Notes: a model not told the origin generated them from the sequence alone. A stretch of DNA of 64,000 nt from Candidatus Frackibacter sp. WG13 (GCF_900114655.1 NZ_FOTT01000005.1:1-64000), one strand, 5' to 3'. Positions 1,821 to 29,389 are shown, counted from the stretch's first letter. A program made the numbers and translations.

Positions 1821-2043
1821 AGTTTAAGGAAATGTTAGATTAGCGATCAGTAAATACATTTATTTGTCAAAATAATGTTTGATTATGGTTAATGAGTATT
1901 ATTTATGATTTTATACAGGAAATTAACATATGAATATAGTAGTATACTATAGGACACTCCATGATATTTATGTAAAATTTAGAGTTAGATATATAATAGT
2001 TATTCACTTGGAAATTATAGTCTTAAATAAGGAGTGGGAAGTG

Positions 2044-5000
2044 GTGGATTACTTAAAAGAGTTAATAGAAGAAAAATTAAATAATAAACAAGAAAAGTTA
2101 ATATTTTCAGTAAAGAACCTTGCAATGAGATTATTTTCACGATGTGGGGAAGAATTAAGCAAAAAGGAAATAATAAAATTCCTAGATAATGACAAAAGGT
2201 TTCTGCAAATTAATTCAAGGCAATTTATAGTTAAAGAAGAAGTTTTAAATCTTATTTCTGATGAATTTATTAATGAATCAGAAGTTAATGAGGATTATCA
2301 AGGAGTAACTAATAGATTAATAAATGTTATAAAGTCTAATTTTCCTGTTTTTGAAATAAGCAAGAATACTATTCTTAAGAGTCTAAAGAAAAAGGCTTTA
2401 GTTAAATATAACCAAGAAAATACGGAGGAAAATGAAAATTTAGATACTGTAAAACAAGATGAAAATAGTAATCAATTAAAAAAATTTAATAAAGATACGA
2501 ATGATAAGATTCAAGCAGAAATGGAGAATAGCGTCGATAGTATTTATGAAGTATTTAACAGTAGAACATATAAAATGTTTAGAAATTTTTGTAAGGCAAA
2601 AGGTATAAAGAGTATCAGAGGAATCAATAAAGATTTGCTTTTAGAATTTAGACAACAAAAAGGTATAGGGGATAAAAAAGTAAAAGATGTTAAGAATAAA
2701 TTATTAAAATTCTTAATTGATAGAATAAATACTTTGAATATAAAATCAGATAGTATTTTTACAGTATTTAGGGGCAGGAAATATAGAATGTTCAGAGAGT
2801 TTTGTAAGATAAAAGGTATCAAGACTATAAAACAGATAAGAAAAGATTTGTTTTTTGATTTTAAACAACAAAGAAATATAGGAGAGAAAAAAGCAAAAGA
2901 TGCTGAGAATAGATTATTAAAATTTTTAATTAATAAATACTATCGTTCCAATATAAAGAATAATAAATCTTCGAATAAATTGTACTTTGATAAAGTGCTT
3001 GAAAAGTTAAAGGAGCCAAAGGATATCAATGAATTGAAAGAAGATATTAAAATAGATGTTGATGATAATGTGTTTATCTACTCACTATTAAGTCATGGTA
3101 ATATATATTATGATAATGGTTATTTGGTAAAAAAGAAGGAACCACAATTAGCTGATAGTTTACAAAAAGTTGGCATGGTATATAAATATACTAATAATAA
3201 ATTAACTGATTATAATTTACAAGTGTTGATTGATGGTTTACTTAAACATTCTCACAAACCAATGACTATAGAAGAAATTGAGAAAGCTTTACTAGTATTA
3301 GATAAAAGAATTGATTTAAATGAGATCGAGGAGATATTAAATAATGATGATTCATTTAAATGTGTAAATTATAAAACTTGGATTAATAAAAATAATAAAT
3401 TTATTCGACATAGTAAATATAAAGAATTTTATGGTGATTTTAAACAACAATTAGATGAAATATTAAATGATTTAGATGAAAGAAAAAAGTATATTCTTTT
3501 TAACAGAACTTTTATATCTAATAAACCAACGTTAAGTGAGCTTGGTAATGAATTTGGTCTTTCTAGAGAAAGGGTTAGACAACTAGAGAATCAAGCTATA
3601 AGACAAATTATGCATCCTCAAAGACGTTCTAGTTATATGCGTTATTTTAAATTATTAGAAAAAGTTTTTGTTGAAACAAGAGTTATGAATTTAGATGGCT
3701 TTTGGAGTCACCCAGTGATTAAAGAATGTTTTTCAAATATAGATTTGGATTTTTTAATTAATTTCTATAATGAATGTAATCATAATAAGGAACAAAAACA
3801 AATTCAATTACTTTATAATAAATATTTAGTTCATATGAAACCTCAGTATTATGAATTATTATGGAGAAGAATTAGAAATGAACTAACCACTAAAACTAAT
3901 ATTGCTGAATTGAAGGATATAGTTCAATTTTTTAGTAAGTTTATGATTAAGAATGAAGAATTTTTAAAAGAAGCTATATTTAGAAAGAGTAATATTATAA
4001 AAATAGAAGCTAAACTGTTAATCAAAGAAAAAAAAGTTTATGAAACAGACAAAATAAAACTAATTCTTTCTTTAATTGGAAAGCCTGTTCATTATAAACA
4101 GGTGGCTGGCTTATATAATCAATACTTTACAGAAACTACAGCACATAACATTCATTCTAAATTAAATAGTTATGATGGAGACTTTATTAGAGTAGATTCA
4201 GGCACTTATGGGTTAACCTCTTGGGATTGCGAAGAAGATATTTATGTACGTGATCTTAATTACCAGATTTTAAAAGAAGAGAAGAAACCATTGCATTATA
4301 AAGAAGTAGCTAAAAAGGTACTGGAACATAAAGAGGTAGAAGCAAGAACGGTATATCATTATCTTATTGATAATAAAAGGATATTCAATTATTCCTCTGG
4401 ATTATTTGCTTTAAAAGAATGGAAAGATGATGAGAAGATTGCTAGTAAGTACCATATTAATTCATGGCGAATTAAGGCAAGTGAACAAGACCGAGTTTAT
4501 GATTATTTTTTAGGGAGTTTTAATGGACGTAAAGGGAGGTTGGTAAGTTTACATAAGATTAGTAAAAAGTACTATTATGAGGATCATTTGAAAGTTTCTA
4601 AAAAGATTATTAAAAGAATGCAAATTAAAAATCAGATTAGTGGAATTGATACTAAAGGTAGGATTTATAATTTGTATTTTGATCAAGAACTAAGGGCCTT
4701 TAAAGGAATAAAGAAGTTTTTAAAAGATAATGATCTAAAAATTGGAGATTATCTTTATGTTGAATATTATAGTGATCAAATAGTTAAGTTTCATAAACAG
4801 AGTGAATATGAAGAAGATTATAAACCCATTTTAGAAACTGATCTTCATCAAGTAAATTCTAATATAGTGATTAATGAGGTTTTAAATGCTAGTAAAGCAG
4901 ATATTAAAGATGGACAAAGAATTGAAATTGTTGATTTAGAATCAGCTATCGAGTATGGACTAAGATATGGTCATGTTAATTTTAATGAACTAATAAAGTT

Positions 5001-5085
5001 GAATTATAACCAAGAAGAAGTTAGTGATCATTTTGAAGCAATTCAATTGCTTGATAGGAAAAATATTGAAATTGTTTACGACTAA
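2044..5085 (+). CDS. Large sigma-region-4/HARE-HTH protein, first gene of the BREX-like operon
   Basis: Multi-domain predicted DNA- or RNA-polymerase-associated protein of 1014 aa. The start is GTG 2044 (or 2041), placed by AAGGAG at 2029-2034; the upstream in-frame ATG at 1930 has no ribosome site. In order: an N-terminal helical region; two tandem 71-residue repeats (from ~165 and ~236; DNA period 213 bp, e.g. YKMFRNFCKAKGIKSI and YRMFREFCKIKGIKTI); a sigma-70 region-4-type HTH at ~496-520 (LSELGNEFGLSRERVRQLEN); two HARE-HTH-like winged helices (~673-725 and ~737-792, GKPVHYKQVA and KKPLHYKEVA) as in RNA polymerase delta subunit; and a C-terminal ~50-residue module (~964-1013) resembling sigma region 1.1, also found in the next two genes. 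There is no sigma region 2, so it is not a normal sigma factor. A regulator or sensor role for the downstream system is inference. Confidence 0.8.
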   Translation: MDYLKELIEEKLNNKQEKLIFSVKNLAMRLFSRCGEELSKKEIIKFLDNDKRFLQINSRQFIVKEEVLNLISDEFINESEVNEDYQGVTNRLINVIKSNFPVFEISKNTILKSLKKKALVKYNQENTEENENLDTVKQDENSNQLKKFNKDTNDKIQAEMENSVDSIYEVFNSRTYKMFRNFCKAKGIKSIRGINKDLLLEFRQQKGIGDKKVKDVKNKLLKFLIDRINTLNIKSDSIFTVFRGRKYRMFREFCKIKGIKTIKQIRKDLFFDFKQQRNIGEKKAKDAENRLLKFLINKYYRSNIKNNKSSNKLYFDKVLEKLKEPKDINELKEDIKIDVDDNVFIYSLLSHGNIYYDNGYLVKKKEPQLADSLQKVGMVYKYTNNKLTDYNLQVLIDGLLKHSHKPMTIEEIEKALLVLDKRIDLNEIEEILNNDDSFKCVNYKTWINKNNKFIRHSKYKEFYGDFKQQLDEILNDLDERKKYILFNRTFISNKPTLSELGNEFGLSRERVRQLENQAIRQIMHPQRRSSYMRYFKLLEKVFVETRVMNLDGFWSHPVIKECFSNIDLDFLINFYNECNHNKEQKQIQLLYNKYLVHMKPQYYELLWRRIRNELTTKTNIAELKDIVQFFSKFMIKNEEFLKEAIFRKSNIIKIEAKLLIKEKKVYETDKIKLILSLIGKPVHYKQVAGLYNQYFTETTAHNIHSKLNSYDGDFIRVDSGTYGLTSWDCEEDIYVRDLNYQILKEEKKPLHYKEVAKKVLEHKEVEARTVYHYLIDNKRIFNYSSGLFALKEWKDDEKIASKYHINSWRIKASEQDRVYDYFLGSFNGRKGRLVSLHKISKKYYYEDHLKVSKKIIKRMQIKNQISGIDTKGRIYNLYFDQELRAFKGIKKFLKDNDLKIGDYLYVEYYSDQIVKFHKQSEYEEDYKPILETDLHQVNSNIVINEVLNASKADIKDGQRIEIVDLESAIEYGLRYGHVNFNELIKLNYNQEEVSDHFEAIQLLDRKNIEIVYD
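2536..2940 (+). repeat. Tandem 213-bp repeat inside the sigma-like gene
   Basis: Two in-frame units start at 2536 and 2749 with GATAGTATTT and stay alignable to about 2940 (e.g. both end in TTATTAAAAT followed by TTAATT). They encode duplicated 71-residue helical units with a Gly-Ile/Gly-Glu-Lys-Lys turn (KGIGDKKVKD and RNIGEKKAKD) like a helix-hairpin-helix. Close DNA similarity suggests a fairly recent internal duplication. Confidence 0.8.
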
Positions 5086-5111
5086 AATTAATAAAGTGAT
5101 TGGTGATAATT

Positions 5112-5348
5112 ATGAGCAATGTTAATGATGAATCTGTTAGTAAGATTATGGATGTTATTTTTGGTGGTAAAGATAAAACAAAACAAAGTATTACTGATTT
5201 AAAATCAGCAATTGAATTTGGTTTGGAGAATGGTTATGTTAACTTTAAAGACTTAATGAAGTTTGATTATGAATCAGAAGAAGTAAAGGACCAATTTGAG
5301 GCAATACAGATACTGGATAATAAGAATATTGAGATAATTTATGATTAG
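5112..5348 (+). CDS. Small stand-alone copy of the sigma-1.1-like module
   Basis: A 78-aa protein that is almost entirely the module ending the preceding protein: compare LKSAIEFGLENGYVNFKDLM with LESAIEYGLRYGHVNFNELI, and the endings FEAIQILDNKNIEIIYD and FEAIQLLDRKNIEIVYD. ATG 5112 is preferred (GGTGAT upstream) over the in-frame TTG at 5100. It sits 26 bp after the large gene and 13 bp before the next. The module resembles sigma-70 region 1.1, a domain that masks the DNA-binding parts of sigma. A free copy could act as an anti- or competitor partner of the large protein; that is inference. Confidence 0.75.
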   Translation: MSNVNDESVSKIMDVIFGGKDKTKQSITDLKSAIEFGLENGYVNFKDLMKFDYESEEVKDQFEAIQILDNKNIEIIYD

Positions 5349-5361
5349 AGGATGACAGTTT

Positions 5362-6879
5362 ATGAATAAAAAGATTAAAGGATTAATTGATAAACGATAT
5401 AAAAGAATAACAGGTACTGATGGTATTATATCTATTGCCAACCTTCAACAGATGATCTTAGCTAAACTAGGTATTCAGGTTGATAGAATTAAGATTAAAG
5501 AATATCTAGAACAGCACCCCAATCTATTACCATTAACTGTTAATCAATTTATTTGTTATGACTATTTTAGCAATATATTTTGGAATTTTATTGCTTATAA
5601 AACTTCACTGAAGGATATAAAAGAGTTTTTAAGTGAGCTATATTCTGTATTAAAAGAGGTTAAAGTAGAAATTCTATTAGAAGCATTTTGTCCAGAGTTT
5701 TTAGAATTTATAAAAGGAGAATATACTACTCCTTTACAAGTTCGTAAGAATGAGGATATTTATACCATTAAAAGTGAAGAAGACTTTGTTGATTTTGGTA
5801 TGGATTATGGTTATGTATCAGCAGATATGGTTAAAGAATATATGAATCGATATAATGTGGATGAAAGTAGTGATCAATTTGAGTTAGTTACCTATTTAAA
5901 TGAAAAAAATATTGATTATTCTTCTAATAGTAATGGTGAGAAGATTTTGAAAGATGACAAAAAGTTCATTAAGAACTATTATGCTCTACAAGATGTTGAA
6001 TATAGTAAAGATAATAATGTTTTATTAGTAGATTTAAGGTTAAATGAATTATTAGCTTTATTATTTTTAATGCAAGATGAGCAAAAATTAATGAAAAAAC
6101 TAGAGAATGCTTCAAGACATAAGTATAAACATGACCTAGTTAGGCTTAGTTTAATAGATCAAAACTTATCGCCTACTAAGAAAGGAGAAAAATTATCAGA
6201 TGCAATAATAGAGCTTATTTATGAGTATATGAATTATAAAGATATAATCACAATTAAAAAGGAGAATTATTCTATTAATGAGTTATGTAAGTCAAAACCG
6301 ATTAAAAAATTGCAACATAATGAAGAGTTTTTGAATGATGCAGCTCCTTATTTAAGAAGACATTTTCTTTCTCTACCTGCTGTTAAATTATTTGTAAATT
6401 GGATCAAGACAATTAATAAGCAGGGTAAGAACTCTATGTTTGATATATTCCAATATTTGATTAAAAATGAGCATTATAGTGAATTGGAATGGCTTTTGAT
6501 AGGTAAAAAACCTAGTTGTGGTTTAAAGCCAATAAGGAAAGGAACAGAAGTATGTATAAATTGCAAAAAACATGTTTCTAGTTGTTGTTTAACACCAGAG
6601 CTTAATAGCTTAAATGATAAGAAAGAGTACTTATTAAATTTAAGAAATCAAAAAATTAAAAAGTATATTGCTGAAATGAAAGAAGATAACTATGAAATGA
6701 TTAAAAAGCCTATTTATATTAAGTTTTTAGCACCTTATTGTCTTGTAGTACGAGTAAAGATCTTCATGCGAAAAATCGGAATATTAAAATCGACTAATAA
6801 TATTTTATATAAAGATAGTGGTAAATATTGTCCAATAGAAGATAAATGGGAGATAGATAACTATGATATTTTGGTGTGA
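5362..6879 (+). CDS. Uncharacterised operon protein with internal sigma-1.1-like module and Cys cluster
   Basis: 505 aa, no recognised family. The N-terminal ~125 residues contain a small winged-helix-like unit (IISIANLQQMILAKLGIQVD). At ~133-187 there is a divergent copy of the module shared by the two upstream proteins (EEDFVDFGMDYGYVSADMVK, FELVTYLNEKNIDY). The central part is Lys/Asp/Glu-rich and helical. Near ~391-415 a Cys cluster (CGLKPIRKGTEVCINCKK, then SSCC) suggests a metal site. The ATG at 5362 follows GAGGATGA. Its last 17 bases overlap the start of brxP, implying translational coupling and a linked function. I cannot name the activity. Confidence 0.75.
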   Translation: MNKKIKGLIDKRYKRITGTDGIISIANLQQMILAKLGIQVDRIKIKEYLEQHPNLLPLTVNQFICYDYFSNIFWNFIAYKTSLKDIKEFLSELYSVLKEVKVEILLEAFCPEFLEFIKGEYTTPLQVRKNEDIYTIKSEEDFVDFGMDYGYVSADMVKEYMNRYNVDESSDQFELVTYLNEKNIDYSSNSNGEKILKDDKKFIKNYYALQDVEYSKDNNVLLVDLRLNELLALLFLMQDEQKLMKKLENASRHKYKHDLVRLSLIDQNLSPTKKGEKLSDAIIELIYEYMNYKDIITIKKENYSINELCKSKPIKKLQHNEEFLNDAAPYLRRHFLSLPAVKLFVNWIKTINKQGKNSMFDIFQYLIKNEHYSELEWLLIGKKPSCGLKPIRKGTEVCINCKKHVSSCCLTPELNSLNDKKEYLLNLRNQKIKKYIAEMKEDNYEMIKKPIYIKFLAPYCLVVRVKIFMRKIGILKSTNNILYKDSGKYCPIEDKWEIDNYDILV

Positions 6880-8431
6880 TAATTGTTCAGTTCCTATTAT
6901 TGATAATCATAAATGCCCTAGTTGTAAAAAACAAATAAAAGAAATTGCTAAGGATGTCAGACCAGTTTTTTTTGAAGAAAAAGTTTTAGTAAGTTTACTT
7001 TTAGAAGAGGAGATAGTTGATAAAAGCGTATGGGCTACTAAACGCAATACGTATATCGTTAATGGGCAAAAATACAAACTTAATTATAATAAGATAAAAG
7101 ATAAAAAGTGGGATTTGAATAATATTAGACAGAAACTTAAAAAAAGAATTTCAGAAACTGATAAAAAAATGAATGATTATAAATGTAAATTTATTAGAAA
7201 CAATAGTGAAAGATTTGATTATATAGAGACTGAAGCTAAAAAGTATATTATGAAAGTTACAAATGAATATAAATCAAAAAATTACATTCCTGTTATTTCG
7301 TTCAGTGGGGGAAAAGATTCTACAGTTATTTCTCATTTAGTAAGGAATGCTTTATCAAAGCAAAAAATAATTCATGTTTTTGGAGATACAACTCTTGAGT
7401 TTCCTTATACATATAAATATATAAAGAAATTTATGAAAAAAAATACGTTAACCCCATTCTTTGAGCAAGCAAGCGATGAAAATTTTATGGATTTATGTTC
7501 AGTATTTGGTCCTCCTAGCAGGTTAGAAAGATGGTGTTGTACAATTTTTAAAACAAATCCTATAGGGCAAAGCATTAGCACTTTCCCTGGTAATAAAAAG
7601 GCGTTAACTTTTATGGGGATTCGCAAATGGGAATCAAGAGAACGAAGTGAATATGAAAGAACTCAAAAGAAATCAAAGATATCAAGACAAATTTCTAGTT
7701 TTCCAATTTTAAATTGGAAAGATTCAGATGTATGGTTATATATCTTATCTAAAGATGTATTATTTAATAAGGCTTATAAATTAGGTTTTACTAGAGTGGG
7801 TTGTTGGTTATGTCCAAATAATTCTGTGTGGTCTGAGTTTTTAACGAGGTTATATATGCCTGAAAAATATGAGGAATGGAGAAGTTTATTAATCAAATTT
7901 GCTAAAAAAGCTGGAAAGCCAGACTATCAAGTATATGTAGATGAGGGTTATTGGAAGGCTAGAAGGGGTGATAAAGGAATAGACACTCAATTAAAAGAAG
8001 TTGATGCTAAAGAATGTACCATAAATGACAATGCCAAAAGTTATACATTAAATAGAAAAATAAAAAAAGACTTTATAGAGTTAATAAAACCTTTTGGAGA
8101 AGTTAATTCACAAGTTGACGGGAGAAAGTTTGAATGGAAGGTGAAAAGTGATAAAACTGAATTTAAAATTACAGGAATACTTAATACTAAACTAATTAAA
8201 GTTATTCCTGATAAAGTTGAAAATATTAGTACTTTCCATAAAAGATTTTTATGTCAATTAAGAAAATATGAAAATTGCATTTATTGTTCTGCTTGTGAAA
8301 ATACTTGTTCTAGCTCTGCTATAAATACAAAGAACAAAAAATACACTATAGATAACAGAAAATGTATTAATTGCAAAGATTGTATAGCTAATTTTTATAA
8401 TGGTTGTTTAAAATTTGAAGCATTAAAATAG
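6863..8431 (+). CDS. brxP: BrxP-like PAPS-reductase-family protein with zinc ribbon and ferredoxin ends
   Basis: ATP-pyrophosphatase fold of the PAPS reductase/DndC type, the marker gene of BREX type 4. Residues 5-21 form a zinc ribbon (CDNC...CPSC). The PP-loop SFSGGKDST lies at ~146-154, FGDTTLEFP at ~172, RWCCTIFKTNP at ~223 and GCWLCPN at ~313; those four Cys match the Fe-S ligands of DndC-like enzymes. The tail (~472-520) is a ferredoxin-like double Cys motif, CIYCSACENTC and CINCKDC. DndC uses ATP and cysteine-derived sulfur to make DNA phosphorothioate; transfer of that role to this protein is inference, helped by the desulfurase at the end of the same operon. 522 aa, intact. It overlaps the gene before and lies 16 bp from the gene after. 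Confidence 0.88.
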   Translation: MIFWCDNCSVPIIDNHKCPSCKKQIKEIAKDVRPVFFEEKVLVSLLLEEEIVDKSVWATKRNTYIVNGQKYKLNYNKIKDKKWDLNNIRQKLKKRISETDKKMNDYKCKFIRNNSERFDYIETEAKKYIMKVTNEYKSKNYIPVISFSGGKDSTVISHLVRNALSKQKIIHVFGDTTLEFPYTYKYIKKFMKKNTLTPFFEQASDENFMDLCSVFGPPSRLERWCCTIFKTNPIGQSISTFPGNKKALTFMGIRKWESRERSEYERTQKKSKISRQISSFPILNWKDSDVWLYILSKDVLFNKAYKLGFTRVGCWLCPNNSVWSEFLTRLYMPEKYEEWRSLLIKFAKKAGKPDYQVYVDEGYWKARRGDKGIDTQLKEVDAKECTINDNAKSYTLNRKIKKDFIELIKPFGEVNSQVDGRKFEWKVKSDKTEFKITGILNTKLIKVIPDKVENISTFHKRFLCQLRKYENCIYCSACENTCSSSAINTKNKKYTIDNRKCINCKDCIANFYNGCLKFEALK

Positions 8432-8447
8432 ACTAGAGGTGATAAAA

Positions 8448-9353
8448 ATGGGGTTTGCTAAACATAGAACATTTTATATAAGAGAGGGATGGTTGCCCAA
8501 AACTTTAAAACTAATAAATGAAAAACCTTATATATTTACTCCAGCAAATAGAGAAGAGGCTATTGATGAATTGGGAGTAGGTAAAACTATGGTAGCAGCT
8601 TTGCGTTTTTGGATGCAGGCTACTGGTTTAACGATAGAAGGTAGAGGAACAAAGGGGATGATTGAACAAGAAATAACTGATTTAGGTAAATTTATTTTAA
8701 ATCATGACCCTTTCTTTGAAGATACAAAAACCTTATGGTTATTACACTATAAGCTAGTGACACAAGAATCTTTAGCTACAAGCTGGTATTGGTTCTTTAA
8801 TTTTTATCAAGAAAATTTTTTTGACCAAACTTCTTTTATAACAGAACTGAAGGCTTATACAAAAAACAACTTAAAAAAAGAGGTTGCAGAAAGCTCCTTA
8901 AAGAAGGACTTTCACTGTTTTAAGAATACTTACCTTTATGAACGAAAGTATAGTTATCAGAATAATCCAGAAGATATTTTGACTTCTCCCTTAGTTGATT
9001 TAGAATTAGTTACTAAGAATGGGAAGCAAGGCTTTCAATTAAATATTCCTTCTTTTAATAAATTAAGTAGTGATATACTCTATTATGTGATTTTAAACCA
9101 ATACTCTGTTAATGAGAATGAACAAATTTCATTTACTCAGTTATTAGAAACAGAAAATAGTATTGGAAAGGTCTTTAGATTAAAAAGAAAATCTTTATTG
9201 AGACATTTAGAATTTTTAGAAGAAAAAGGTTATTTGGAAATTCAAAGAGGGTTTGGCCATAATTTAATAACACTACACCAAACAAATAAATTTAAAGTTT
9301 TAGAAGATGCATATACAGATATAGACACTAATTATGGATTAGAGGGGATTTAA
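8448..9353 (+). CDS. DUF4007 family protein (BREX-associated)
   Basis: 301 aa; ATG 8448 follows AGAGGTGAT. It opens MGFAKHRTFYIREGWLPKTL, the hallmark of DUF4007 proteins that accompany PAPS-reductase-type defence genes. A helical/winged-helix core follows (ELGVGKTMVAALRFWMQATG, then ITDLGKFILNHDPFFED and LLHYKLV). The C-terminal part has another winged helix (LKRKSLLRHLEFLEEKGYLE). The 'GVGKT' here is not a P-loop, since no Walker context surrounds it. It ends 2 bp before the giant ATPase and so is probably made with it. The biochemical role is unknown; a DNA-reading adaptor is plausible. A divergent relative is encoded at 12948. Confidence 0.8.
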   Translation: MGFAKHRTFYIREGWLPKTLKLINEKPYIFTPANREEAIDELGVGKTMVAALRFWMQATGLTIEGRGTKGMIEQEITDLGKFILNHDPFFEDTKTLWLLHYKLVTQESLATSWYWFFNFYQENFFDQTSFITELKAYTKNNLKKEVAESSLKKDFHCFKNTYLYERKYSYQNNPEDILTSPLVDLELVTKNGKQGFQLNIPSFNKLSSDILYYVILNQYSVNENEQISFTQLLETENSIGKVFRLKRKSLLRHLEFLEEKGYLEIQRGFGHNLITLHQTNKFKVLEDAYTDIDTNYGLEGI

Positions 9354-9355
9354 AT

Positions 9356-12934: not shown

Positions 12935-12947
12935 AGGGGGATAAGAT

Positions 12948-13766: not shown

Positions 13767-14367
13767 ACTATCAACCGAACAAAAAGATATATTTAATCAG
13801 CTTAGATTAATTCAAAAAGAAGAAAAATTCTATCGGCGCAAAAATTTTATACTTCTAGGAGAATTAGGCGTTGGCAAAAGCACCTTATTAAAAGATTTAG
13901 GGAATCAAAAAGGATTTCATTACATTAACTTTACTAAGGACTATTTAGAAGAATTTCATGATAGAGGTTATGTTAGTTTTAGATATTTAACCAGTAATGA
14001 CTTTTTAAAGTATATAAGTGAACAATTTTCTTTTTCGTCTTCATTCTATTTAATAGATGCTTTAGAGCCAATAATTATTTCTATTTATCAAAATGGTGGG
14101 GAAAGAATGTTAACTAATTTCTTTAATAATTTCTTCATTCAAAAACCAAGAGGTCATCTATTATTATCAATCTCTGAATTAACAAGTATAAACTTGAAAG
14201 AGATTATAATTAAAAGTGAGTTTAGTGATAGAAATCTCTTTTATCTGCAAGAAGATGAGAGTATCAGAAATGAATTAGCAGATAAATATAACTTACCTAA
14301 GGTTAAAGTTAATAACTTTAAGAATAATCATTATTTTAAAGCTTATAGAGGAGGGAGTAGTTCATAA
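13756..14367 (+). CDS. Small P-loop ATPase (BrxF/BrxD-like position)
   Basis: 203 aa; ATG 13756 is preferred (AGAGG nine bases upstream) over in-frame TTG 13750/13753. Walker A is GELGVGKS at residues 35-42. A Walker B-like strand, HLLLSISELTS, lies in the middle, and no further domain follows. In several BREX types a small ATPase accompanies the giant one (BrxF in type 3, BrxD in type 2); the size and position here fit that pattern, but the sequence is too divergent to assign the name. It ends with TAATG, sharing one base with the next start, which is tight coupling to the second giant ATPase. Confidence 0.65.
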   Translation: MKHELSTEQKDIFNQLRLIQKEEKFYRRKNFILLGELGVGKSTLLKDLGNQKGFHYINFTKDYLEEFHDRGYVSFRYLTSNDFLKYISEQFSFSSSFYLIDALEPIIISIYQNGGERMLTNFFNNFFIQKPRGHLLLSISELTSINLKEIIIKSEFSDRNLFYLQEDESIRNELADKYNLPKVKVNNFKNNHYFKAYRGGSSS

Positions 14368-17300
14368 TGAAGATTAAAGACTTAGTAAGTTTAAGAAGTT
14401 TTCAGCCTGTAATTAATTTAAAATGGGCCGATGATAAGAATGAACAATTAAGTTTATTAGAGAATTATATTTTAACCGAAGACTTAGCAGAACTTTTTAC
14501 AGATGTGTTAGAAACAATTACTATGAAAAGATCACCAGAAAGATGTGATCAATTAGGTGGAGATATTGATTCAGTAGATGTTCAACGTTCTCATATAATA
14601 AGTGGTCAGTACGGTACTGGTAAATCTTATTTTCTTTTGATGTTAAGTATAATTTTAGAGTTGAAAAATGATAGATTAGCAGAAGAGTTATTAGATAAGG
14701 TTAAAGAATTTACAGACTTACATTATCAATTAGATCATATAATTGATGAAATGAAGTACTTAGTTGTTAGAATCAATGGAGAAAACGAAAATGAAAAACA
14801 TTTTGATGATGTAATACAAGAAGCAGTAATCAATCGCCTCCATCAAGAATTTGATAACGTAGTTCTAAAGAGTAACTATCAAAACCTTTTAGATAATTTA
14901 ATTGCACATAAAGAACATGATGTTAGAAGTAAACTATTAGAAGAAGTCTTAAACCCAAAGAGTTATAACTATCAAGATTTATTAGAAGGACTAAAGGGGC
15001 ATCAAAGAGAAGCAAAAGATAGGTACATAGACTTAATGAAAGAAGCAGGTTTAAGTAGTGGTGATGATTTTAAGAATTTAGAAGAATTTATTGAGGATGT
15101 TAATGAATTTTTAATAAGTCAAGGATATGATGAACTGATTATTATTTTAGATGAATTTTCTGCTTATTTAGATGCTTCGGTTGAAGCAAGACGTAGTAAG
15201 ATAGATTTAGGTAATATTCAAACTTTAGCTCAACTGACTGCTCCTACTTCCAAATATAATATTTCTTTTATTACCTCAACTCATGTAGACATAAAGGAGA
15301 TTCTAAATCAAGCTTTTACAAACCAAGAAGATATCAACAAGGTATTTGGTAGGTTTAAACAACGTCAAATTGCGTTCAATCAAGGAAATGAATTAATAAA
15401 AGATACTATAAAGATAGATAAGAGTAAATTTAATCAAATTAAACAAAAACATTTGGCGTTAATTACTCAATTGGAGAATCAATATGGAGTGTCAGTAGAA
15501 GATTATTATCCTTTACACCCAGCAAGTTTAATATATCTACAACCTGTAGCACAAAAATTCGCTCAAAAAGATAGAACGCTGTTTGTTTTTCTAAAAGAAG
15601 TAGTTAAAGAGAGGTATTTTAATGAAGATGTTGAGGTTAATGGTGAATTGAACTTTATCCAATTAGATGATATTTTTGATAAATTTTTACCTGCTTTTGA
15701 ACAAGATCGTAATTTGATTAAAGTTTATAATCAAATGAGAGAGATAGCAGATAGTGAATTAGCAACTAAGATTAATAAAGCTTTAGTCATTAGTTATGTT
15801 TCTTTATTATCTACAGGAGCAAGTGCAAAAAGAACTGCCGGGCTTTCTAAAGAAGATCTACAAAATATATATTTTGTAGAAGAGAATCAAGTAACTAAAG
15901 CACTGGACCACTTAGTAGAAGATAATCGTAGTCATATTGTCTTTAATGATGATAAATATCAATTAGTAATTAGTAATACAGGAATAAACTTAGAGCAAGA
16001 AATATCTAAGGAAGCACAAAATGTTAATCCGTATCGAGAATTAAGGCGTTTATTAAAAGAAGAAGAGAATAGTTTAGATATTAAAAGGCAGTATAATTTA
16101 AAGTATAATAGAGGTCTTTATCCATTAAGCAGAGAGTTAGAAGGGAAATTAACTACTGCTGAAGATTTTACTGATGTTAAAGATTTAGAAGACTATTTTA
16201 GAACTAATAAGGATGGTAAACTTACATTTATAGTACCTAAATTTAATGAGAAATATAATTTAGCTGATTTTAAAAACAAATATGCACCTAAATTTCAAGA
16301 ATTGCCTGCTAATGTTGCGTTGGCTTTACCAAAGAAGATATATTTTAAAGAGAAAGATCTGAAAGAATATGGAGCGATTAAAATATTAGAAACTAATGAC
16401 GAGATAATTAAGAATGATGATTTAACTAAGTTATTAGGACAACGCAAACGAAAGCTTGAAGGAAAGATTAGAAATAGATTTTTAAGAAAGTTTGGTAAAG
16501 TCAATAACTTTACTTTTATATTTGGTCAAGGAATTGTTAGAGATGATATTAGACAAGATAAAGAACTATTTAAAGAATTATTATATCAATATTATGATAA
16601 GTTTCCTTTAGAGATTGAAGTAGAAAATTTTGATAGTCGGTCAGCGTCTAATTCAGTTATCAAGCGTATGATTGCTACTGGTGAAGATTTGATAAGCAAG
16701 AGTTCTAGTTCTGTTTTTCAGAAACAGATTTTTAATACTATGAAACCATTAGACCTGATTACTATTGAAGAGCAACCAGATAATTATAAGGTTAAGATGA
16801 AGATTCCAAGGGAAGAAGTAAGTCAGAAATCTTATCAAATTTGGCAGATCATTACTGATGATAATATGTCAATTGAAGAGAAATTTGAAACTTTAGAAAG
16901 TGCTCCTTATGGTCTAAATGAAGCATTAATTGAACTTTATATAGCTGTAGCTTTAGGTCTTGGTAAGTTTCGTTTGAAAGATAGGAAAGGCAAAGTTGTT
17001 ACTGCTCCAAATAAAGATCATATTGTTAACATTAAGAATAGTAATTATGAGATGGAAGAAGTTCCTGATACACACGTTGGGAAGAAGGAAAAAGTGAAAG
17101 AAGTGTGGCAAATCTTATCTAAAATTATTCCAAACTCTCAATATAGAAGTTTTGACCCTCATGGTAGAAAGGAAGATAATAAATTCTTTGCTATATTGGG
17201 AAGAGAAATAAAAGCAGCTATTAATAATTTGGATAGAGATAAAGATGTTATGGAAGGTAGAGGTTTAAATACTAAACCATTAGCTAACTTAAAAGATGAA

Positions 17301-18341
17301 TTAATAAAAGTTACTAAGAGTATGAGTCCAGAAAAGCTATATGAGAAATTAATTGAGTTAGTTGATAATCTTTATCCTGAAAAGGAATATAATGCTACTT
17401 TAAAGGAAATAGAAGATTTGATTGATAATTTAGATGTATTTAACAATAAGAAGAAAAGAATTAACCATCTTTCAAAGCAATTAGATAATTTAAAAGGGAA
17501 AATACACATACTAAGTGATTATTCTAATTTAAAGGAAAAACTAAATAATGTAAAAGAAATGTGGAGTAATTATCAAAAGGAGCCGTTTAATTTTACTCTT
17601 ATTTCAGAAATAGAAGATGAACTTAAGATGACAATTGCTGGATATAATCAGAAATATAAAGAAGCACATGACGCTTATTATCAAAAGTTTGAGGATGGAA
17701 AAGAAAAAATTCTAAATGGACAGCAAGATTATATAGAATTAATAAAGAAATTTGAAGCAATTAATTTTGAAATTACTAAAGTTTCTGCATATATTAATGA
17801 ATTGCATCAGTTTAAGCCTTGTGACCAATTAACTATAAATAATGACGAAGTAGCAAAATGTAGTTGTAATTTGAAAAGTTTACAGTCAGTAGAGAATAGA
17901 GCAGCAGATATTGAAAAGAAAATTAACCTTAAAAGAAAACAAATAGCTAATATATATACTAATTATATTGATGATTTTAACGCTAATCAAGGAAAGATTA
18001 ATAGATATTTAGAAGAAAATCTTCCTGATAAATTAGATGACTGGAATTTTATTATTGGAGCAATTAATGATGATGCAATAGCTCATAAAGATAAATTAAA
18101 AGTTAAATTAGAAGACTTAGCTCCTGAAATTAATGAAGCACTTTCTGAAACTGAAGATGAAGAAGAAGTGCAAAAAACTAACAGAGTTAAACTAAATGAA
18201 TTTATGCAGCAATTAGAGAGTAAGGTTAAGGCTTATGGTAGAAATAATATATCTTTTGCGGATATAAAGGATATATTTAACGAAGTATGTAATGAGTTGA
18301 ATGACATTAAAGACTATGAAGGATTAAAACTTGGAGAGTGA
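14367..18341 (+). CDS. brxC: Giant BrxC/PglY-like P-loop ATPase, second copy
   Basis: 1324 aa. Walker A is GQYGTGKS at residues 80-87 and Walker B is LIIILDEFSAYLD at ~257-269. YPLHPASLIYLQ at ~383 and ESAPYGLNEALIELYIAV at ~845 are the BrxC/PglY-type signatures. A long coiled-coil/helical C-terminal third contains two CxxC-like cysteines near ~1170 (CDQLT...CSC), a possible metal site not seen in the first copy. It is the closer fit to classical BrxC because PglZ and BrxL follow directly. It is 5 bp from the pglZ start. Intact, no frameshift seen. The role in BREX is established as essential, though its mechanism is not settled. Confidence 0.82.
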   Translation: MKIKDLVSLRSFQPVINLKWADDKNEQLSLLENYILTEDLAELFTDVLETITMKRSPERCDQLGGDIDSVDVQRSHIISGQYGTGKSYFLLMLSIILELKNDRLAEELLDKVKEFTDLHYQLDHIIDEMKYLVVRINGENENEKHFDDVIQEAVINRLHQEFDNVVLKSNYQNLLDNLIAHKEHDVRSKLLEEVLNPKSYNYQDLLEGLKGHQREAKDRYIDLMKEAGLSSGDDFKNLEEFIEDVNEFLISQGYDELIIILDEFSAYLDASVEARRSKIDLGNIQTLAQLTAPTSKYNISFITSTHVDIKEILNQAFTNQEDINKVFGRFKQRQIAFNQGNELIKDTIKIDKSKFNQIKQKHLALITQLENQYGVSVEDYYPLHPASLIYLQPVAQKFAQKDRTLFVFLKEVVKERYFNEDVEVNGELNFIQLDDIFDKFLPAFEQDRNLIKVYNQMREIADSELATKINKALVISYVSLLSTGASAKRTAGLSKEDLQNIYFVEENQVTKALDHLVEDNRSHIVFNDDKYQLVISNTGINLEQEISKEAQNVNPYRELRRLLKEEENSLDIKRQYNLKYNRGLYPLSRELEGKLTTAEDFTDVKDLEDYFRTNKDGKLTFIVPKFNEKYNLADFKNKYAPKFQELPANVALALPKKIYFKEKDLKEYGAIKILETNDEIIKNDDLTKLLGQRKRKLEGKIRNRFLRKFGKVNNFTFIFGQGIVRDDIRQDKELFKELLYQYYDKFPLEIEVENFDSRSASNSVIKRMIATGEDLISKSSSSVFQKQIFNTMKPLDLITIEEQPDNYKVKMKIPREEVSQKSYQIWQIITDDNMSIEEKFETLESAPYGLNEALIELYIAVALGLGKFRLKDRKGKVVTAPNKDHIVNIKNSNYEMEEVPDTHVGKKEKVKEVWQILSKIIPNSQYRSFDPHGRKEDNKFFAILGREIKAAINNLDRDKDVMEGRGLNTKPLANLKDELIKVTKSMSPEKLYEKLIELVDNLYPEKEYNATLKEIEDLIDNLDVFNNKKKRINHLSKQLDNLKGKIHILSDYSNLKEKLNNVKEMWSNYQKEPFNFTLISEIEDELKMTIAGYNQKYKEAHDAYYQKFEDGKEKILNGQQDYIELIKKFEAINFEITKVSAYINELHQFKPCDQLTINNDEVAKCSCNLKSLQSVENRAADIEKKINLKRKQIANIYTNYIDDFNANQGKINRYLEENLPDKLDDWNFIIGAINDDAIAHKDKLKVKLEDLAPEINEALSETEDEEEVQKTNRVKLNEFMQQLESKVKAYGRNNISFADIKDIFNEVCNELNDIKDYEGLKLGE

Positions 18342-18345
18342 TAAG

Positions 18346-20943
18346 ATGATTAATCCTATTTTCAGATTAATTCAAGATAAATTTAAATTGTATGATTCTC
18401 CCCAAGAGGAGAATCATACAATTATTGTTAATGATGATAAGAGTTATGTTAGATCACGAGTCATGATTGAAACAATAAAAGAACAAGACCGATTTAGTAA
18501 AATTGAAATAGTTATTCAAAATGAAAATTATTTCAATTTATATCAAGATATCAAGGAATTAGGAGCTTTAACGAAGTTAGTAAAGATAGATCCACTCAAA
18601 GCTTTTAAAGAAAAATTCAATTATGAAATTCCTGTGTCTATTTCTGCTCAATTTTTAATTAATAATAATCTTTTAGAGGAAGTAGAGGATTTTAATCATT
18701 ATTACAATGTCGACTATGATTTTAAGACTAATTTATTATTATATCGTTTACAATTAAAAAACATAAGTTTATTATCAAATAAATATAGTTTGCTTAGGTT
18801 TATTAGTGATTATTCAGAGAAAATTAAAATTTTTAAAAATAATCGTAGTCTTTTTGAGATATTTACTAATAAAGTTTTTAATAAAATTGAAGAAAAGGAT
18901 TTAGTACAAGATATTAAAGAAGCAATTATTAATGATGAATTAAATAATTATTTAGAATTTTTATTAGCTGGTCATATTTTCTCTCATTATCAGGAGTATA
19001 ATTTTAATACGTTTTTAAGTGATTTAGATTATGATTACAAAAATTTAAATTTATATTATAGATTAGCACAAGAAAATAAATTAGTAGATTTTTATAAGCG
19101 GTTATATCTTAATAATGAGAGTTTCCTCAAAACAATAAGTAACTATCTTAAGAGCCAACAAGATAAGGTTGACATTTTTGCTGATAAGTTTGAATATAGT
19201 AAGTATCTAGATAATATTTCAGGTTATTTAGATTACGAACTTGATTATTTAATAAAAAACTTATTAAAAGATTTAATTACAAAAGAGGTAGATAAATATT
19301 ATCTTTCCTTATTATCCAAAATAGAAAAAAAATTTGCACCTCTATTTAATTTCGAGAAAGCACTAAAGAATTTTAATATGTTTAAAAAATTATTAAATTT
19401 ATTATATAAACTAAGAAATATTGTGGACTTAGATAATAATTTTACAGATTGGACAACCTTCTATCGAGAAGAATATTTAGATTTAAATAATAATTTAGAG
19501 GAAGAAAAGAATATTTTTAATATAATTGAAAAGCTAGCCGGTAAATATAATTTAAATCTTAGTTCAGTTAAAGTAAAAGTAGAAACTGAATTAAATAAAA
19601 TTAATAGGCAGTATGAGGAATATCTAATTAATAATTATGAGTCTTTGATTAGTAGTGAAGAAAATTTAGGAATCTGTTCTAAGTTAGAAGAAATTAAAAG
19701 AATTATGAATCGAGGTACACCCGTAATTATGATAGTTATTGATGCTATGCGATGGGATATGTGGGATATTATCAGTAGTATTTTTGAGAAATATGGTTTT
19801 GTAATGACTAATAAGCAAGACGAAGTAACTTTATCTTTAATTCCTTCGGTGACTGATATCTCTCGTCGTTCTTTATTCGCAGGGATGAATTATAGTGATT
19901 TACAGCAGAAAAAAGTATCTGGTCAATTTACTCATGGTATTCATAATGAAGTAAAACATTTACAAAGATATTTTGTCCATAATAAAATATCTTTTGCTAA
20001 AGGTGGTAAAAAAGCATTTAAAGAGTTAATAACTGAAAAAGCAGACCTTTATTCATTTATTTTTACTGAAGGAGACGAGATGTTCCATGGCTTTAAAGAT
20101 ATTAATAGTGAATTGATTACTGTTTTATTTGAAAATCAGGTTAAAAATATAGCTGAGACGATCTCTAAATCTGATTATTTAACTCAAGCTAAAATTGTTG
20201 TGACTACTGATCATGGTTCGATTAAAATTGCTCAACATCAGTCCTATAATTTAAACAAAAATTTCAAAGATTATCTTAAAAGTAAAGATTTAATGATTGA
20301 GTCTCATGGTCGTTATTTAAAGGTATATGGTAAGGAATTTATAGAAGAAGAATATCAAGAGGTAAAAAAACATTTACTACAAATGGAAGATGATTATTGG
20401 CATATTATTGACCGAGATACTATGAAAAGCTTTTATCTTCCTAAGACTGATGTAAATGGTGAGAATTATTTTTGGTTAATAAGTAAATATGGTTATTATC
20501 CAGGTGCATGTAGAGGTGATTATACTCACGGTGGTGTGAGTATGAGTGAAACAATAATTCCATTTGCAATTTTAGAAAAGAAGGAAAGTACTTTTAATAT
20601 TCCTGAATTGCAACTAATACACTCTGAATTGGTTGCAGAAAAAGAGTCGCAATTAGAATTACTGTTGGTTAATAATAATAACTATCCATTACGAGATTTA
20701 GTTTTAGAATTTGCTCACTTTGGAATTACTGAGGAGATAGGGTTCATGTCTAGGAATGATTCACTTACATTTCAGATTAATTTACTACCTAATGAAAGTG
20801 GGGAAATTGAAGAGGAAATTAATTTAAATTTTAACTTTGCTGGGAAACACAAGCAATTAAATAAATCTTTATCTTTAACAATAGAAGATAGTAGTAAAAC
20901 TAGAATTAATAAGTCATTAAAAGAATCACGCGAATTATTTTAA
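18346..20943 (+). CDS. pglZ: PglZ-domain alkaline-phosphatase-superfamily protein
   Basis: 865 aa; ATG 18346 follows GGAGAGTGA (the TTG at 18331 is upstream of it). A helical N-terminal half leads to the PglZ domain: a metal-binding strand VIMIVIDAMRWDMWD (Asp ~466), SLIPSVTDISRRSLF, the second metal motif TTDHGS (Asp ~622) and a C-terminal HGGVSMSETIIPFAIL. These are the residues expected of the alkaline phosphatase superfamily, so the site looks intact. PglZ is the most conserved BREX marker; it is thought to act with BrxC and the modification protein. It lies between the second giant ATPase and brxL, the usual type 4 neighbourhood. Confidence 0.92.
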   Translation: MINPIFRLIQDKFKLYDSPQEENHTIIVNDDKSYVRSRVMIETIKEQDRFSKIEIVIQNENYFNLYQDIKELGALTKLVKIDPLKAFKEKFNYEIPVSISAQFLINNNLLEEVEDFNHYYNVDYDFKTNLLLYRLQLKNISLLSNKYSLLRFISDYSEKIKIFKNNRSLFEIFTNKVFNKIEEKDLVQDIKEAIINDELNNYLEFLLAGHIFSHYQEYNFNTFLSDLDYDYKNLNLYYRLAQENKLVDFYKRLYLNNESFLKTISNYLKSQQDKVDIFADKFEYSKYLDNISGYLDYELDYLIKNLLKDLITKEVDKYYLSLLSKIEKKFAPLFNFEKALKNFNMFKKLLNLLYKLRNIVDLDNNFTDWTTFYREEYLDLNNNLEEEKNIFNIIEKLAGKYNLNLSSVKVKVETELNKINRQYEEYLINNYESLISSEENLGICSKLEEIKRIMNRGTPVIMIVIDAMRWDMWDIISSIFEKYGFVMTNKQDEVTLSLIPSVTDISRRSLFAGMNYSDLQQKKVSGQFTHGIHNEVKHLQRYFVHNKISFAKGGKKAFKELITEKADLYSFIFTEGDEMFHGFKDINSELITVLFENQVKNIAETISKSDYLTQAKIVVTTDHGSIKIAQHQSYNLNKNFKDYLKSKDLMIESHGRYLKVYGKEFIEEEYQEVKKHLLQMEDDYWHIIDRDTMKSFYLPKTDVNGENYFWLISKYGYYPGACRGDYTHGGVSMSETIIPFAILEKKESTFNIPELQLIHSELVAEKESQLELLLVNNNNYPLRDLVLEFAHFGITEEIGFMSRNDSLTFQINLLPNESGEIEEEINLNFNFAGKHKQLNKSLSLTIEDSSKTRINKSLKESRELF

Positions 20944-20955
20944 AAGGAGTGAAAA

Positions 20956-22353
20956 GTGAGTATGGAAGAATGGGAAAAAAAATTTAAAGATAACTTCGGT
21001 TCTGCAGTTGTTGATAAAGAAGTTGCATTAAAGAATGAAGTTGATGATTTACCTCGTTATGTTTCAGAATACTTATTAGGTTATTTTTGTCAAGATGGAG
21101 TAACCGAAGAAAACTTGAAAGAAATGCACCAGTATGTTAAAGAATGTCGTGTTGAAGGTAGAGCAAAGGAAAAAGCAAGGCATAAATTACAGACAAATTT
21201 TAGGATGAAAGTGATAGATAAGTTTAAAGTAAAGATTAATTTAACTAAAAAGAATGAACAAGAAAATAATTTAGAAATTCCAAGTATGGGAGTTACAGAT
21301 GCTCAAGTTTATAATAGTATTTTAAAAGATAATGAAAGATTATTAATTGATGGTCTATGGGGGTTAGGTGAAGTAAAGTATAATCCAGAAATAAAAACAA
21401 TAGAATTAACAAAGTTCAAACCATTTCAATTAGCAAATATAAAAATAAATGATTTTGTAGAAGCGAGAAGTGAGTTTAATAGCGAAGAATGGGTTAATGC
21501 TTTAATTAGTACCATAGGATTAAATTATAATGCTTATTCTAAGCGCGAAAAGATGATTTTAATTTCCCGCTTACTACCAATGGTTGAAAATAATCTTTTT
21601 ATGATGGAATTTGGTGCTCCTGGTACTGGTAAGACTTATGCTTTTGAAAATCTTTCCTCTTATTCGCGAGTAATTTCTGGGAGTAAGGTTACAGCTCCAC
21701 AATTATTCTTTAATTTAAAGACTAAGCAGGAAGGATTATTGCTGCAGTATGATGTAGTATTATTTGATGAAATTGATAAAGTGAAAAAGAAAGGGATCGA
21801 TGAAGATGTTATAAATAAGTTATATCAATACCTTGCTTCTGGTAAGTTTGATCGAGGGGGAGTTGAAAAAACAAGTAATTGTGGTGTCGTAATGGTAGGG
21901 AATCTACCTAAAAATAAATTAAATAAAGCCGAAATGTTAGATGAATTATTACATGAGGACTTAAAACATGCTGCATTTTTAGACCGTTTAGCAGGGGTTA
22001 TCCCTGGCTGGGAGTTAAAGAGTATTAAAGATAGTAATGTGAGTTTAACTAAACATTATGGGTTTACCGCAGATTACTTTAGTGAAATTCTTAATCGCTT
22101 ACGCAGAAGTAACTATGATTATATACTTAATCGGATTAAGTTTGAAAATGCTGCCATTAGAGATGAGCAAAATATTAAAAAGATTGTTTCTGGCTTTATT
22201 AAGTTATTGTATCCTAATGGACAACTTACTGATAAACAGTTAAGTAAATTAACTCAATATGCTGTAGAGTATAGACAGTTTGTTGTAGATCAGAATTATA
22301 ATATTAATGGAAAAGAAGACTTCAATAAGACAATTGGGTTTAGAATTAAATAA
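20956..22353 (+). CDS. brxL: BrxL, short AAA+ form
   Basis: 465 aa. GTG 20956 is chosen (AAAGGAGTG just upstream); ATG 20962 is an alternative. The AAA+ core has MEFGAPGTGKTYAF (P-loop at 220-227), VVLFDEIDKVKKKG as Walker B and a sensor stretch CGVVMVGNLP. There is no Lon-like protease domain: the protein ends soon after the AAA+ lid. That is not a truncation, because the short ~470-residue BrxL family lacks it whereas type 1 BrxL is ~680 aa. BrxL hexamers bind DNA and are needed for phage exclusion in type 1. It closes the recognisable BREX core, and the desulfurase follows 17 bp later. Confidence 0.88.
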   Translation: MSMEEWEKKFKDNFGSAVVDKEVALKNEVDDLPRYVSEYLLGYFCQDGVTEENLKEMHQYVKECRVEGRAKEKARHKLQTNFRMKVIDKFKVKINLTKKNEQENNLEIPSMGVTDAQVYNSILKDNERLLIDGLWGLGEVKYNPEIKTIELTKFKPFQLANIKINDFVEARSEFNSEEWVNALISTIGLNYNAYSKREKMILISRLLPMVENNLFMMEFGAPGTGKTYAFENLSSYSRVISGSKVTAPQLFFNLKTKQEGLLLQYDVVLFDEIDKVKKKGIDEDVINKLYQYLASGKFDRGGVEKTSNCGVVMVGNLPKNKLNKAEMLDELLHEDLKHAAFLDRLAGVIPGWELKSIKDSNVSLTKHYGFTADYFSEILNRLRRSNYDYILNRIKFENAAIRDEQNIKKIVSGFIKLLYPNGQLTDKQLSKLTQYAVEYRQFVVDQNYNINGKEDFNKTIGFRIK

Positions 22354-22370
22354 AAATGGGGGATTAGCTT

Positions 22371-23519
22371 ATGATATATTTTGATAATGCAGCTACAACA
22401 TTTAAAAAGCCAGATGCAGTTTATGAGGCAATAATGGAAACATTAAGAAATAAAAGTGGTAATCCTAGTCGAGGAAGTCATAAAGCTGCTTTATCAGCTA
22501 GCAAGGTAGTATTTCAAACAAGAAGAAAACTAGCTAATTTTTTTAATGCTAGAAATAGTAAAGAGATAATTTTTACTAAGAATGCTACTGAAGCTATGAA
22601 TTTAGTTTTTAAAGGCTTATTAGAGTCAGGTGATCATGTAATTATTAGTAGTTTAGAACATAATGCTGTTTATCGTCCTTTGAATCGATTAAGGGAAGAA
22701 GGCATAATTAATCTTACAATAGTTGATACCGAGCAAGGAAGGAAAGAATTTCTGAAGCAAGTTAATAATTCTATTAATTCTCAGACTCGTTTAATGGTAT
22801 TAACTCACGCTTCTAATGTAACAGGTAGTATTTTACCTATAAAGGAATTAGGAAAAATAGCAGTTAATAATAACATTAATTTTTTAGTTGATGCTGCTCA
22901 AACTGCTGGAGTCTTACCTATAGATGTTCAGAAATTAAATATAGACTTTCTTGCTTTTACTGGTCACAAAGGGTTGTATGGTCCTCAAGGCACTGGTGGA
23001 CTTTATATTAATTCTGATGTTCAGTTAACCCCTTTGGTTGAGGGAGGAACTGGAGGAAATTCTAAAGCTAAATTAAACCCTAATATTTTACCGGATAAAT
23101 ACGAAAGTGGTACAGTGAATACTCCTGGAATTGCTGGCTTAGGAGCAGGAATCGATTTTATTAATAAAATATCATTAATTAAAATTAAACAGTATAAAGA
23201 GGAACTATTGGTAAAGTTAATTTCGGGTTTGAATAATATACCCAAGGTAAGAATTATTAATTCAAATATTAGTGTGAATAGAGCTGGTGTAGTTTCTTTT
23301 AAAGTGTCAGGGATTAAATCTGCGACTATTGGTAATTTACTTGATAAAAAATATAATATTGCAGTTAGAACTGGTTTGCATTGTGCGCCTTTGGCTCATA
23401 AAAGCATTGGAACATATGACACGGGAACAGTACGAATTAGTCTCAGTTATTTTAATAATACAAATGAAATAGATAAATTTTTAGAAGCATTAACTGAAAT
23501 TGTAAAAATAAGGGGTTAA
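22371..23519 (+). CDS. Cysteine desulfurase family protein (aminotransferase class V)
   Basis: PLP enzyme that takes sulfur from cysteine to give alanine and a protein persulfide. 382 aa. It starts MIYFDNAATTFKKP. His97 lies in SLEHNAVYRP, the PLP Lys200 in TGHKGLYGPQGTGG and the persulfide Cys338 in RTGLHCAPLAHKS, so all key residues are present. It belongs to the class II-like (EF2568-type) branch that is often paired with the small DUF3343 carrier, as here. It is 17 bp after brxL with GGGGGA as ribosome site and no terminator between. In Dnd systems a desulfurase (DndA or IscS) feeds sulfur to DndC; the same role for BrxP is a reasonable inference. Confidence 0.92.
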   Translation: MIYFDNAATTFKKPDAVYEAIMETLRNKSGNPSRGSHKAALSASKVVFQTRRKLANFFNARNSKEIIFTKNATEAMNLVFKGLLESGDHVIISSLEHNAVYRPLNRLREEGIINLTIVDTEQGRKEFLKQVNNSINSQTRLMVLTHASNVTGSILPIKELGKIAVNNNINFLVDAAQTAGVLPIDVQKLNIDFLAFTGHKGLYGPQGTGGLYINSDVQLTPLVEGGTGGNSKAKLNPNILPDKYESGTVNTPGIAGLGAGIDFINKISLIKIKQYKEELLVKLISGLNNIPKVRIINSNISVNRAGVVSFKVSGIKSATIGNLLDKKYNIAVRTGLHCAPLAHKSIGTYDTGTVRISLSYFNNTNEIDKFLEALTEIVKIRG

Positions 23520-23524
23520 AGAGA

Positions 23525-23740
23525 ATGAATTATAACTTGATTATTTTTCCTACTACACATAATCTTTTTTTAGCAGAAGAATTATTAGAAAAGCATAATT
23601 ATAAATTGGAAATTGTTCCTACACCTGATGACGAAGAAGATTGTTGTAGCTTATCTATTAAGATTAAATGCAATAATATTAATAAAGTGGAAGAGATGTT
23701 ACAAACAGAGATAATTCGATATGTTAAAATAAAAAAATGA
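23525..23740 (+). CDS. DUF3343 putative Se/S carrier-like protein
   Basis: 71 aa. It matches the small putative Se/S carrier family (DUF3343): a beta-alpha-beta start (IIFPTTHNLFLAEELL) and a later Cys-Cys pair (Cys40-Cys41 in EEDCCSLSIK) plus Cys49, suited to holding persulfide or selenide. It is 5 bp after the cysteine desulfurase, the usual partnership. In other Firmicutes this pair is often found with selenium genes, but no selD or yedF is visible here. As last gene of the BREX-like operon it could pass sulfur to BrxP. No clear hairpin terminator follows within 50 bp. Confidence 0.82.
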   Translation: MNYNLIIFPTTHNLFLAEELLEKHNYKLEIVPTPDDEEDCCSLSIKIKCNNINKVEEMLQTEIIRYVKIKK

Positions 23741-28198: not shown

Positions 28199-28252
28199 AA
28201 ATTTTAATCTGTAATAAAGAACAGAAAAACACGAAATAAAAAGGTGATAATA

Positions 28253-29311: not shown

Positions 29312-29389
29312 TTAAAATATTAAATATAAGCTAAAGATTATATCTGAATGGGTAACGTTGCTGAAATTGTAATGTGAGGTGAATACACT

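Follow-up and report, generated by a model that had tools for sequence, protein, structure and literature searches.

An operon that combines BREX genes with a cysteine desulfurase and a small cysteine-pair protein raises the question of what the sulfur is for, and of how such a system would tell self from foreign DNA. The operon lies in the window analysed here, a stretch of 64,000 nucleotides from Candidatus Frackibacter sp. WG13 (GCF_900114655.1, NZ_FOTT01000005.1:1-64000). An initial annotation had read it as a BREX type 4-like system with its own sulfur supply. The general part of this reading, namely that a desulfurase accompanying type 4 BREX implies phosphorothioate (PT) DNA, is likely right and already published. 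According to a study of January 2026, 255 of 457 (56%) type 4 BREX taxa have a cysteine desulfurase, from which PT was inferred; the study terms the desulfurase a possible sixth core component (PMC12839542). PMC11931770 lists brxPCZL among PT-synthesising families, citing a 2024 preprint; the 2024 preprint cited in PMC12839542 ties BREX type 4 to PT. Given these reports, the association of a desulfurase with BREX was known before. Neither DUF3343 nor a second BrxC copy appears in the main text of PMC12839542. What is new here is the two-module layout together with a carrier-linked, SufS-like sulfur supply, with prior mention possible in the 2024 preprint or in the supplements of PMC12839542.

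Gene content of the operon

The operon consists of 13 ORFs on the plus strand (1930-23740, or from an internal start near 2044 in gene A); it is real and complete, and all core motifs are intact. From gene A to the carrier, the intergenic gaps are 14, 13, -17, 7, 2, 13, -17, -1, -11, 12, 17 and 5 bp. This range of -17 to 17 bp bears out the tight, partly overlapping arrangement described in the initial annotation, including the 17 bp between brxL and the desulfurase and the 5 bp between desulfurase and carrier. Families were assigned by profile searches (PADLOC, Pfam, TIGR01977), and each member of the proposed core, BrxP, DUF4007, BrxC-like ATPases, PglZ and BrxL, was matched by family profiles.

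The writer module consists of BrxP/SspD, SspB and SspC. BrxP/SspD (6863..8431; PADLOC profile PDLC02510, 3.9e-90) is a PAPS-reductase-like sulfurtransferase of 522 aa without a DUF4007 part; it carries an SGGKDS motif, an N-terminal CxxC and a C-terminal ferredoxin-like cysteine cluster, and aligns with homologues from Ssp loci. SspB (8439..9353; PF13182 1.7e-75, SspB profile 4.2e-65) is the first DUF4007 protein, and SspC (gene F, 9356..12934; SspC profile 1.4e-145) the first BrxC-like ATPase. The BREX module follows with a second, divergent DUF4007 protein (BrxA-like, 12948..13766; PF13182 5.9e-13), which has counterparts in equivalent position in Thermomicrobium roseum and on plasmid pPg_05, a BrxF-like STAND/AAA ATPase (13750..14367; BrxF 4.3e-4, a weak match), a second BrxC-like ATPase (gene I, 14367..18341; SspC profile 1.5e-26, BrxC 4.8e-4), PglZ (18331..20943; PF08665 7.3e-13 and metal-site motifs), a putative nuclease/phosphatase effector of alkaline-phosphatase fold, and a short BrxL without Lon domain (20956..22353; PF13337 4.7e-94, PF20442 1.2e-23). 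Assignment of the BrxF-like protein and of the second BrxC draws on weak database matches, on position and on profiles built from these very loci; the profile of equivalent genes that the STAND gene matches included the STAND gene of the window. Walker A motifs are intact in both BrxC copies, the STAND protein and BrxL. The short BrxL is the only one among 59 genomes of the class, and viral contigs searched with BrxL as a single-protein query gave no match. As the initial annotation had claimed, the system appears methylase-free: none of the operon genes, and none of the larger ORFs scanned in the rest of the window, matched a DNA methylase domain.

The last two genes also correspond to their earlier description. 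The desulfurase (22371..23519; TIGR01977 4.9e-148) retains the PLP lysine (GHK) and the HCA cysteine, and the DUF3343 protein (23525..23740; PF11823 1.6e-16), a putative S/Se carrier, has an adjacent cysteine pair (CC motif).

The first three genes share a sigma region 1.1-like segment. Gene A (1051 aa, 1930..5085; PF04545 1.1e-8, PF05066 8.4e-10), a putative regulator or DNA-binding accessory, is composed of two HhH-like repeats, a sigma-70 region 4, a HARE-HTH and, at its C-terminus, the region 1.1-like domain. Gene B (82 aa, 5100..5348; PF03979 E=0.031) is a small region 1.1-like protein that matches the C-terminus of gene A (4.8e-20) and gene C (1.2e-5). Gene C (505 aa, 5362..6879) matched no Pfam family, its homologue was found in none of the plasmids by tblastn, and its single-sequence AlphaFold model (pLDDT 39.8) was not usable. 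Relatives of gene A adjoin BrxP or Ssp genes in five loci (L088, L070, L097, L180, L186), and a further one precedes the equivalent BREX module on plasmid pIAD-21. Sigma-70 region 4 is found in proteins encoded beside BrxP or Ssp genes at L088 2608-4962, which additionally contains an RNA polymerase alpha-CTD and a HARE-HTH, at L070 7751-10771 and at L097 7701-8819.

Two modules and their recurrence

The type 4-like label is apt as far as BrxP, PglZ and BrxL are concerned, but misses a full Ssp writer module and a separate full BREX module. Judged by its genes, the operon is not a canonical type 4 BREX; it is a predicted Ssp-type PT-writing module joined to a separate BREX module. It shares with type 4 BREX (brxPCZL) the PAPS-reductase-like BrxP, DUF4007, a BrxC-like ATPase, PglZ, BrxL, the lack of a methylase and a desulfurase, which often adjoins BrxL. 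Canonical loci, however, have a BrxP-DUF4007 fusion of ~780 aa, one BrxC and a NifS/IscS-like desulfurase, beside which two loci have a small CxxC...CxxC protein, whereas the window has a separate BrxP, two DUF4007 and two BrxC proteins, a STAND protein encoded by a gene of its own, and DUF3343 next to a desulfurase of SufS-like type. Five canonical type 4 loci (L188, L189, L190, L191, L155) have a gene of 720-850 aa directly upstream of BrxP.

With the Ssp system (SspABCD plus SspE or SspFGH) the window shares BrxP/SspD, SspB, SspC (gene F, placed among SspC proteins by the tree below) and a SufS-like desulfurase; Ssp loci are also present in relatives from its class. Nearly all closer relatives in the BrxP alignment with enough flanking sequence have the order BrxP-SspB-SspC-desulfurase, usually with another large gene next; in five genomes of the window's class the BrxP-SspB-SspC core is likewise followed by a desulfurase. 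Ssp loci of this class continue into GmrSD-, helicase- or HerA-type genes, whereas the window continues into the PglZ/BrxL module, and no SspE or SspFGH effector domain was found in the operon or the flanking genes scanned. In one relative (L024 11649-19999) a second cluster, with genes for a BrxC-like protein of 1428 aa, DUF4007, a helicase and a DndB-like protein, lies facing an Ssp locus. Plasmid pIAD-21 of Abditibacteriota has the same order of sigma/HARE protein, DUF4007, BrxF-like, BrxC, PglZ and BrxL genes, but a predicted DNA methylase (NPPY motif in the sequence) at the place of the PT writer.

The two-module order with PglZ and BrxL is found on the Thermomicrobium roseum megaplasmid NC_011961 and on pPg_05 of Pseudanabaena galeata, where the NCBI annotation independently names DUF4007, PAPS reductase, the second DUF4007, BrxL and the desulfurase. 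The layout also occurs in five Chloroflexota loci (L154, L165, L166, L167, L168; L166 without a recognisable SspD), as surveyed with profiles built partly from the loci being counted. In Ktedonobacter (L123/L124) and in genome G405 the modules are adjacent or convergent. In two Chloroflexota (G405, G208) the Ssp half is followed by extra large genes, perhaps effectors of its own, and the BREX half of G208 is degraded; coupling of the modules is hence not universal. The 17 short-BrxL loci retrieved from samples of 395 and 398 genomes of two further phyla are all canonical, or consistent with this where truncated, with a fused BrxP of ~780 aa and one BrxC.

A BrxC/SspC tree, obtained by a quick method and with long branches, places gene F inside the SspC clade (SH-aLRT 99) together with Ssp proteins of Bacillota, whereas gene I belongs to neither the SspC nor the canonical type 4 BrxC clade; nine canonical type 4 BrxC proteins form one supported group that excludes genes F and I. 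Most writer ATPases of Chloroflexota and cyanobacteria belong to a different SspC group than gene F. Because the writer ATPases are split between SspC groups, repeated assembly of the two modules is the simplest reading, and the tree suggests that the layout was assembled more than once. A local tandem duplication of DUF4007 and BrxC was considered and rejected, as the two copies differ strongly and counterparts of each occupy the same position elsewhere.

Desulfurase and DUF3343 carrier

The initial annotation had left open whether the desulfurase/carrier pair adjoins BREX in this genome only, and the two genes differ in this respect. The desulfurase part recurs: a desulfurase directly follows brxL in the window, in the two-module loci of T. 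roseum (NC_011961), pPg_05 and Chloroflexota (L165, L167), and in canonical type 4 loci (L125, L178, L188, L191). With this occurrence in other phyla the link is not particular to the genome of the window, and the reading of a PT-type BREX that brings its own source of sulfur is supported. A desulfurase tree, obtained by a careful method, groups the window enzyme with SufS-like enzymes, among them Ssp desulfurases and two paralogues encoded in the same genome, and its best solved relatives are SufS. The enzymes tested from canonical type 4 loci and from other compact two-module loci, beside BrxL, are NifS/IscS-like. The desulfurase of Ktedonobacter is SufS-like, but terminates a separate, convergent writer module. 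As two unlike classes occupy the slot after brxL, the desulfurase seems, from these trees, to have been recruited there independently, which argues that a local sulfur supply is under selection.

The carrier, in contrast, adjoins BREX only in the window among the loci sampled; none was seen in the other BREX loci inspected. It does recur beside the desulfurase in three Ssp loci of Oscillospiraceae/Eubacteriaceae (gut Clostridia; L037, L038, L041), whose order SspB-SspC-BrxP-desulfurase-carrier is unlike that of the window. One DUF3343 cysteine column is conserved in 34 of 34 aligned sequences. A second cysteine within 4 residues of it is present in 4 of 4 PT-linked carriers vs 1 of 30 aligned sequences of the window's class, a weak comparison because three of these carriers are closely related. 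In most Ssp loci that have a SufS-like desulfurase DUF3343 is missing, which means that a carrier is not a general requirement.

SufS-type enzymes usually pair with a transfer partner, for example SufE or SufU. DUF3343 could take such a role for the SufS-like desulfurase and would then, within the literature searched, be the first partner proposed for SufS-like enzymes in PT systems. A zinc-finger protein has been reported beside type 4 desulfurases, and we asked whether it might be DUF3343. This was rejected, as two canonical loci have a CxxC...CxxC protein of ~65 aa beside the desulfurase (L178 4621-4818; L188 15852-16052), probably the zinc-finger protein mentioned in PMC12839542.

The genome encodes further desulfurases. 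One belongs to an [FeFe]-hydrogenase maturation cluster on contig 29 (L030 4970-10337) with HydG, a DUF3343::HydE fusion, HydF and a TIGR01977 desulfurase that is 49% identical to the window enzyme. Since this cluster likewise combines DUF3343 with a related desulfurase, the pair appears, on gene content, to be a portable sulfur-handling cassette. Comparable DUF3343-bearing long ORFs lie beside HydG at L217 and L221.

The pair is also part of the exchanged interval. The flanking genes SSB (269-673) and RlaP (24213-24989) are 91% and 84% identical, respectively, to genes of G050, where they enclose an Ssp system; in the window the corresponding interval includes desulfurase and carrier. The host belongs to the phylum of Desulfallas sp. 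Bu1-1, as members of its class turned up again, at identical coordinates, when that phylum was searched.

Proposed function and alternatives

We consider it probable that the operon is a PT-based defence system in which writer and restriction modules are joined and provided with their own sulfur supply. PT formation, the flow of sulfur and the division of labour are inferred from gene content, layout and trees. The writer module (BrxP/SspD, SspB, SspC) would replace a backbone oxygen by sulfur at specific sites of host DNA. This sulfur would pass from cysteine to the SufS-like desulfurase, then, probably, to the DUF3343 carrier and on to BrxP. The restriction module (second DUF4007, BrxF-like STAND, second BrxC, PglZ, BrxL) would scan DNA and block unmarked phage DNA. 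Each job would thus have a separate ATPase and DNA-binding DUF4007 protein, whereas the one BrxC of canonical type 4 BREX serves both. BrxC is thought to coordinate modification and restriction, whose communication is an open question (reviewed in PMC12707154). As one BrxC-like ATPase apparently serves writing and one restriction, each could be removed separately; Thermomicrobium roseum DSM 5159 is a sequenced, named strain with this layout. Only tentatively, and at slightly below even confidence, do we propose the more specific reading of a recurrent, undescribed PT-dependent BREX subtype with separate ATPase/DNA-binding sets for marking and restriction, a desulfurase independently recruited after brxL, and a lineage-specific dicysteine carrier that feeds the writer.

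Desulfurase and carrier might instead mainly build the iron-sulfur cluster of BrxP, with PT sulfur coming from a housekeeping IscS-type enzyme. The ferredoxin-like cysteines of BrxP fit such a role, as do the hydrogenase cluster with its related desulfurase and DUF3343, the other desulfurases of the genome and the reported assembly of the DndC Fe-S cluster by DndA (the title of reference 6 in PMC12839542). Published Dnd and Ssp models, however, lead sulfur from the desulfurase via the PAPS-reductase-like protein to DNA (PMC12707154), and cluster building and PT supply are compatible roles; we regard this explanation as rather unlikely. It is improbable, in our judgement, that Ssp and BREX are independent systems side by side in a defence island, sharing an operon and functionally uncoupled. 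The SspC trees do indicate separate assemblies, the Ssp half in G405 and G208 is followed by other large genes that are possibly its own effectors, and a Wadjet-like locus is nearby. But SspE/SspFGH-like genes are missing from the Ssp half, and a methylase from the BREX half, in the window, in T. roseum and in the compact loci of Chloroflexota, so that each half is short of what the other supplies, and both module order and tight spacing recur.

Least probable of all is that desulfurase and carrier have nothing to do with defence and are carried along for sulfur or selenium metabolism. DUF3343 occurs widely in the class, in 46 of 59 genomes, and the literature ties it to selenium genes, where small DUF3343 proteins pair with selenocysteine lyases (PMC5322559). 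The window operon, however, contains no selenium genes, and its carrier has a second cysteine beside the conserved one, like the three Ssp-linked carriers. A related desulfurase lies within about 1.5 kb of DUF3343 genes of the class in only 3 of ~29 loci checked. Desulfurases fill the slot after brxL in several phyla, three Ssp loci share the pair, and that of the window sits between the rest of the operon and the RlaP flank common to G050.

Two further features flank the PT-based system that we favour. A 175-aa gene (Z_175, 1232-1759) has a 94% identical copy on contig 5, likewise beside SSB, and occurs in four relatives; being multi-copy, it was rejected as sole marker of the insertion site, and the SSB/RlaP flanks were used instead. 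Downstream, a DUF6036 nucleotidyltransferase (27599-28198) precedes the Wadjet-like locus (28244-36045), which consists of a gene with a JetD C-terminal domain (PF09983), a 511-aa gene, a DUF6063 gene and a 1466-aa gene.
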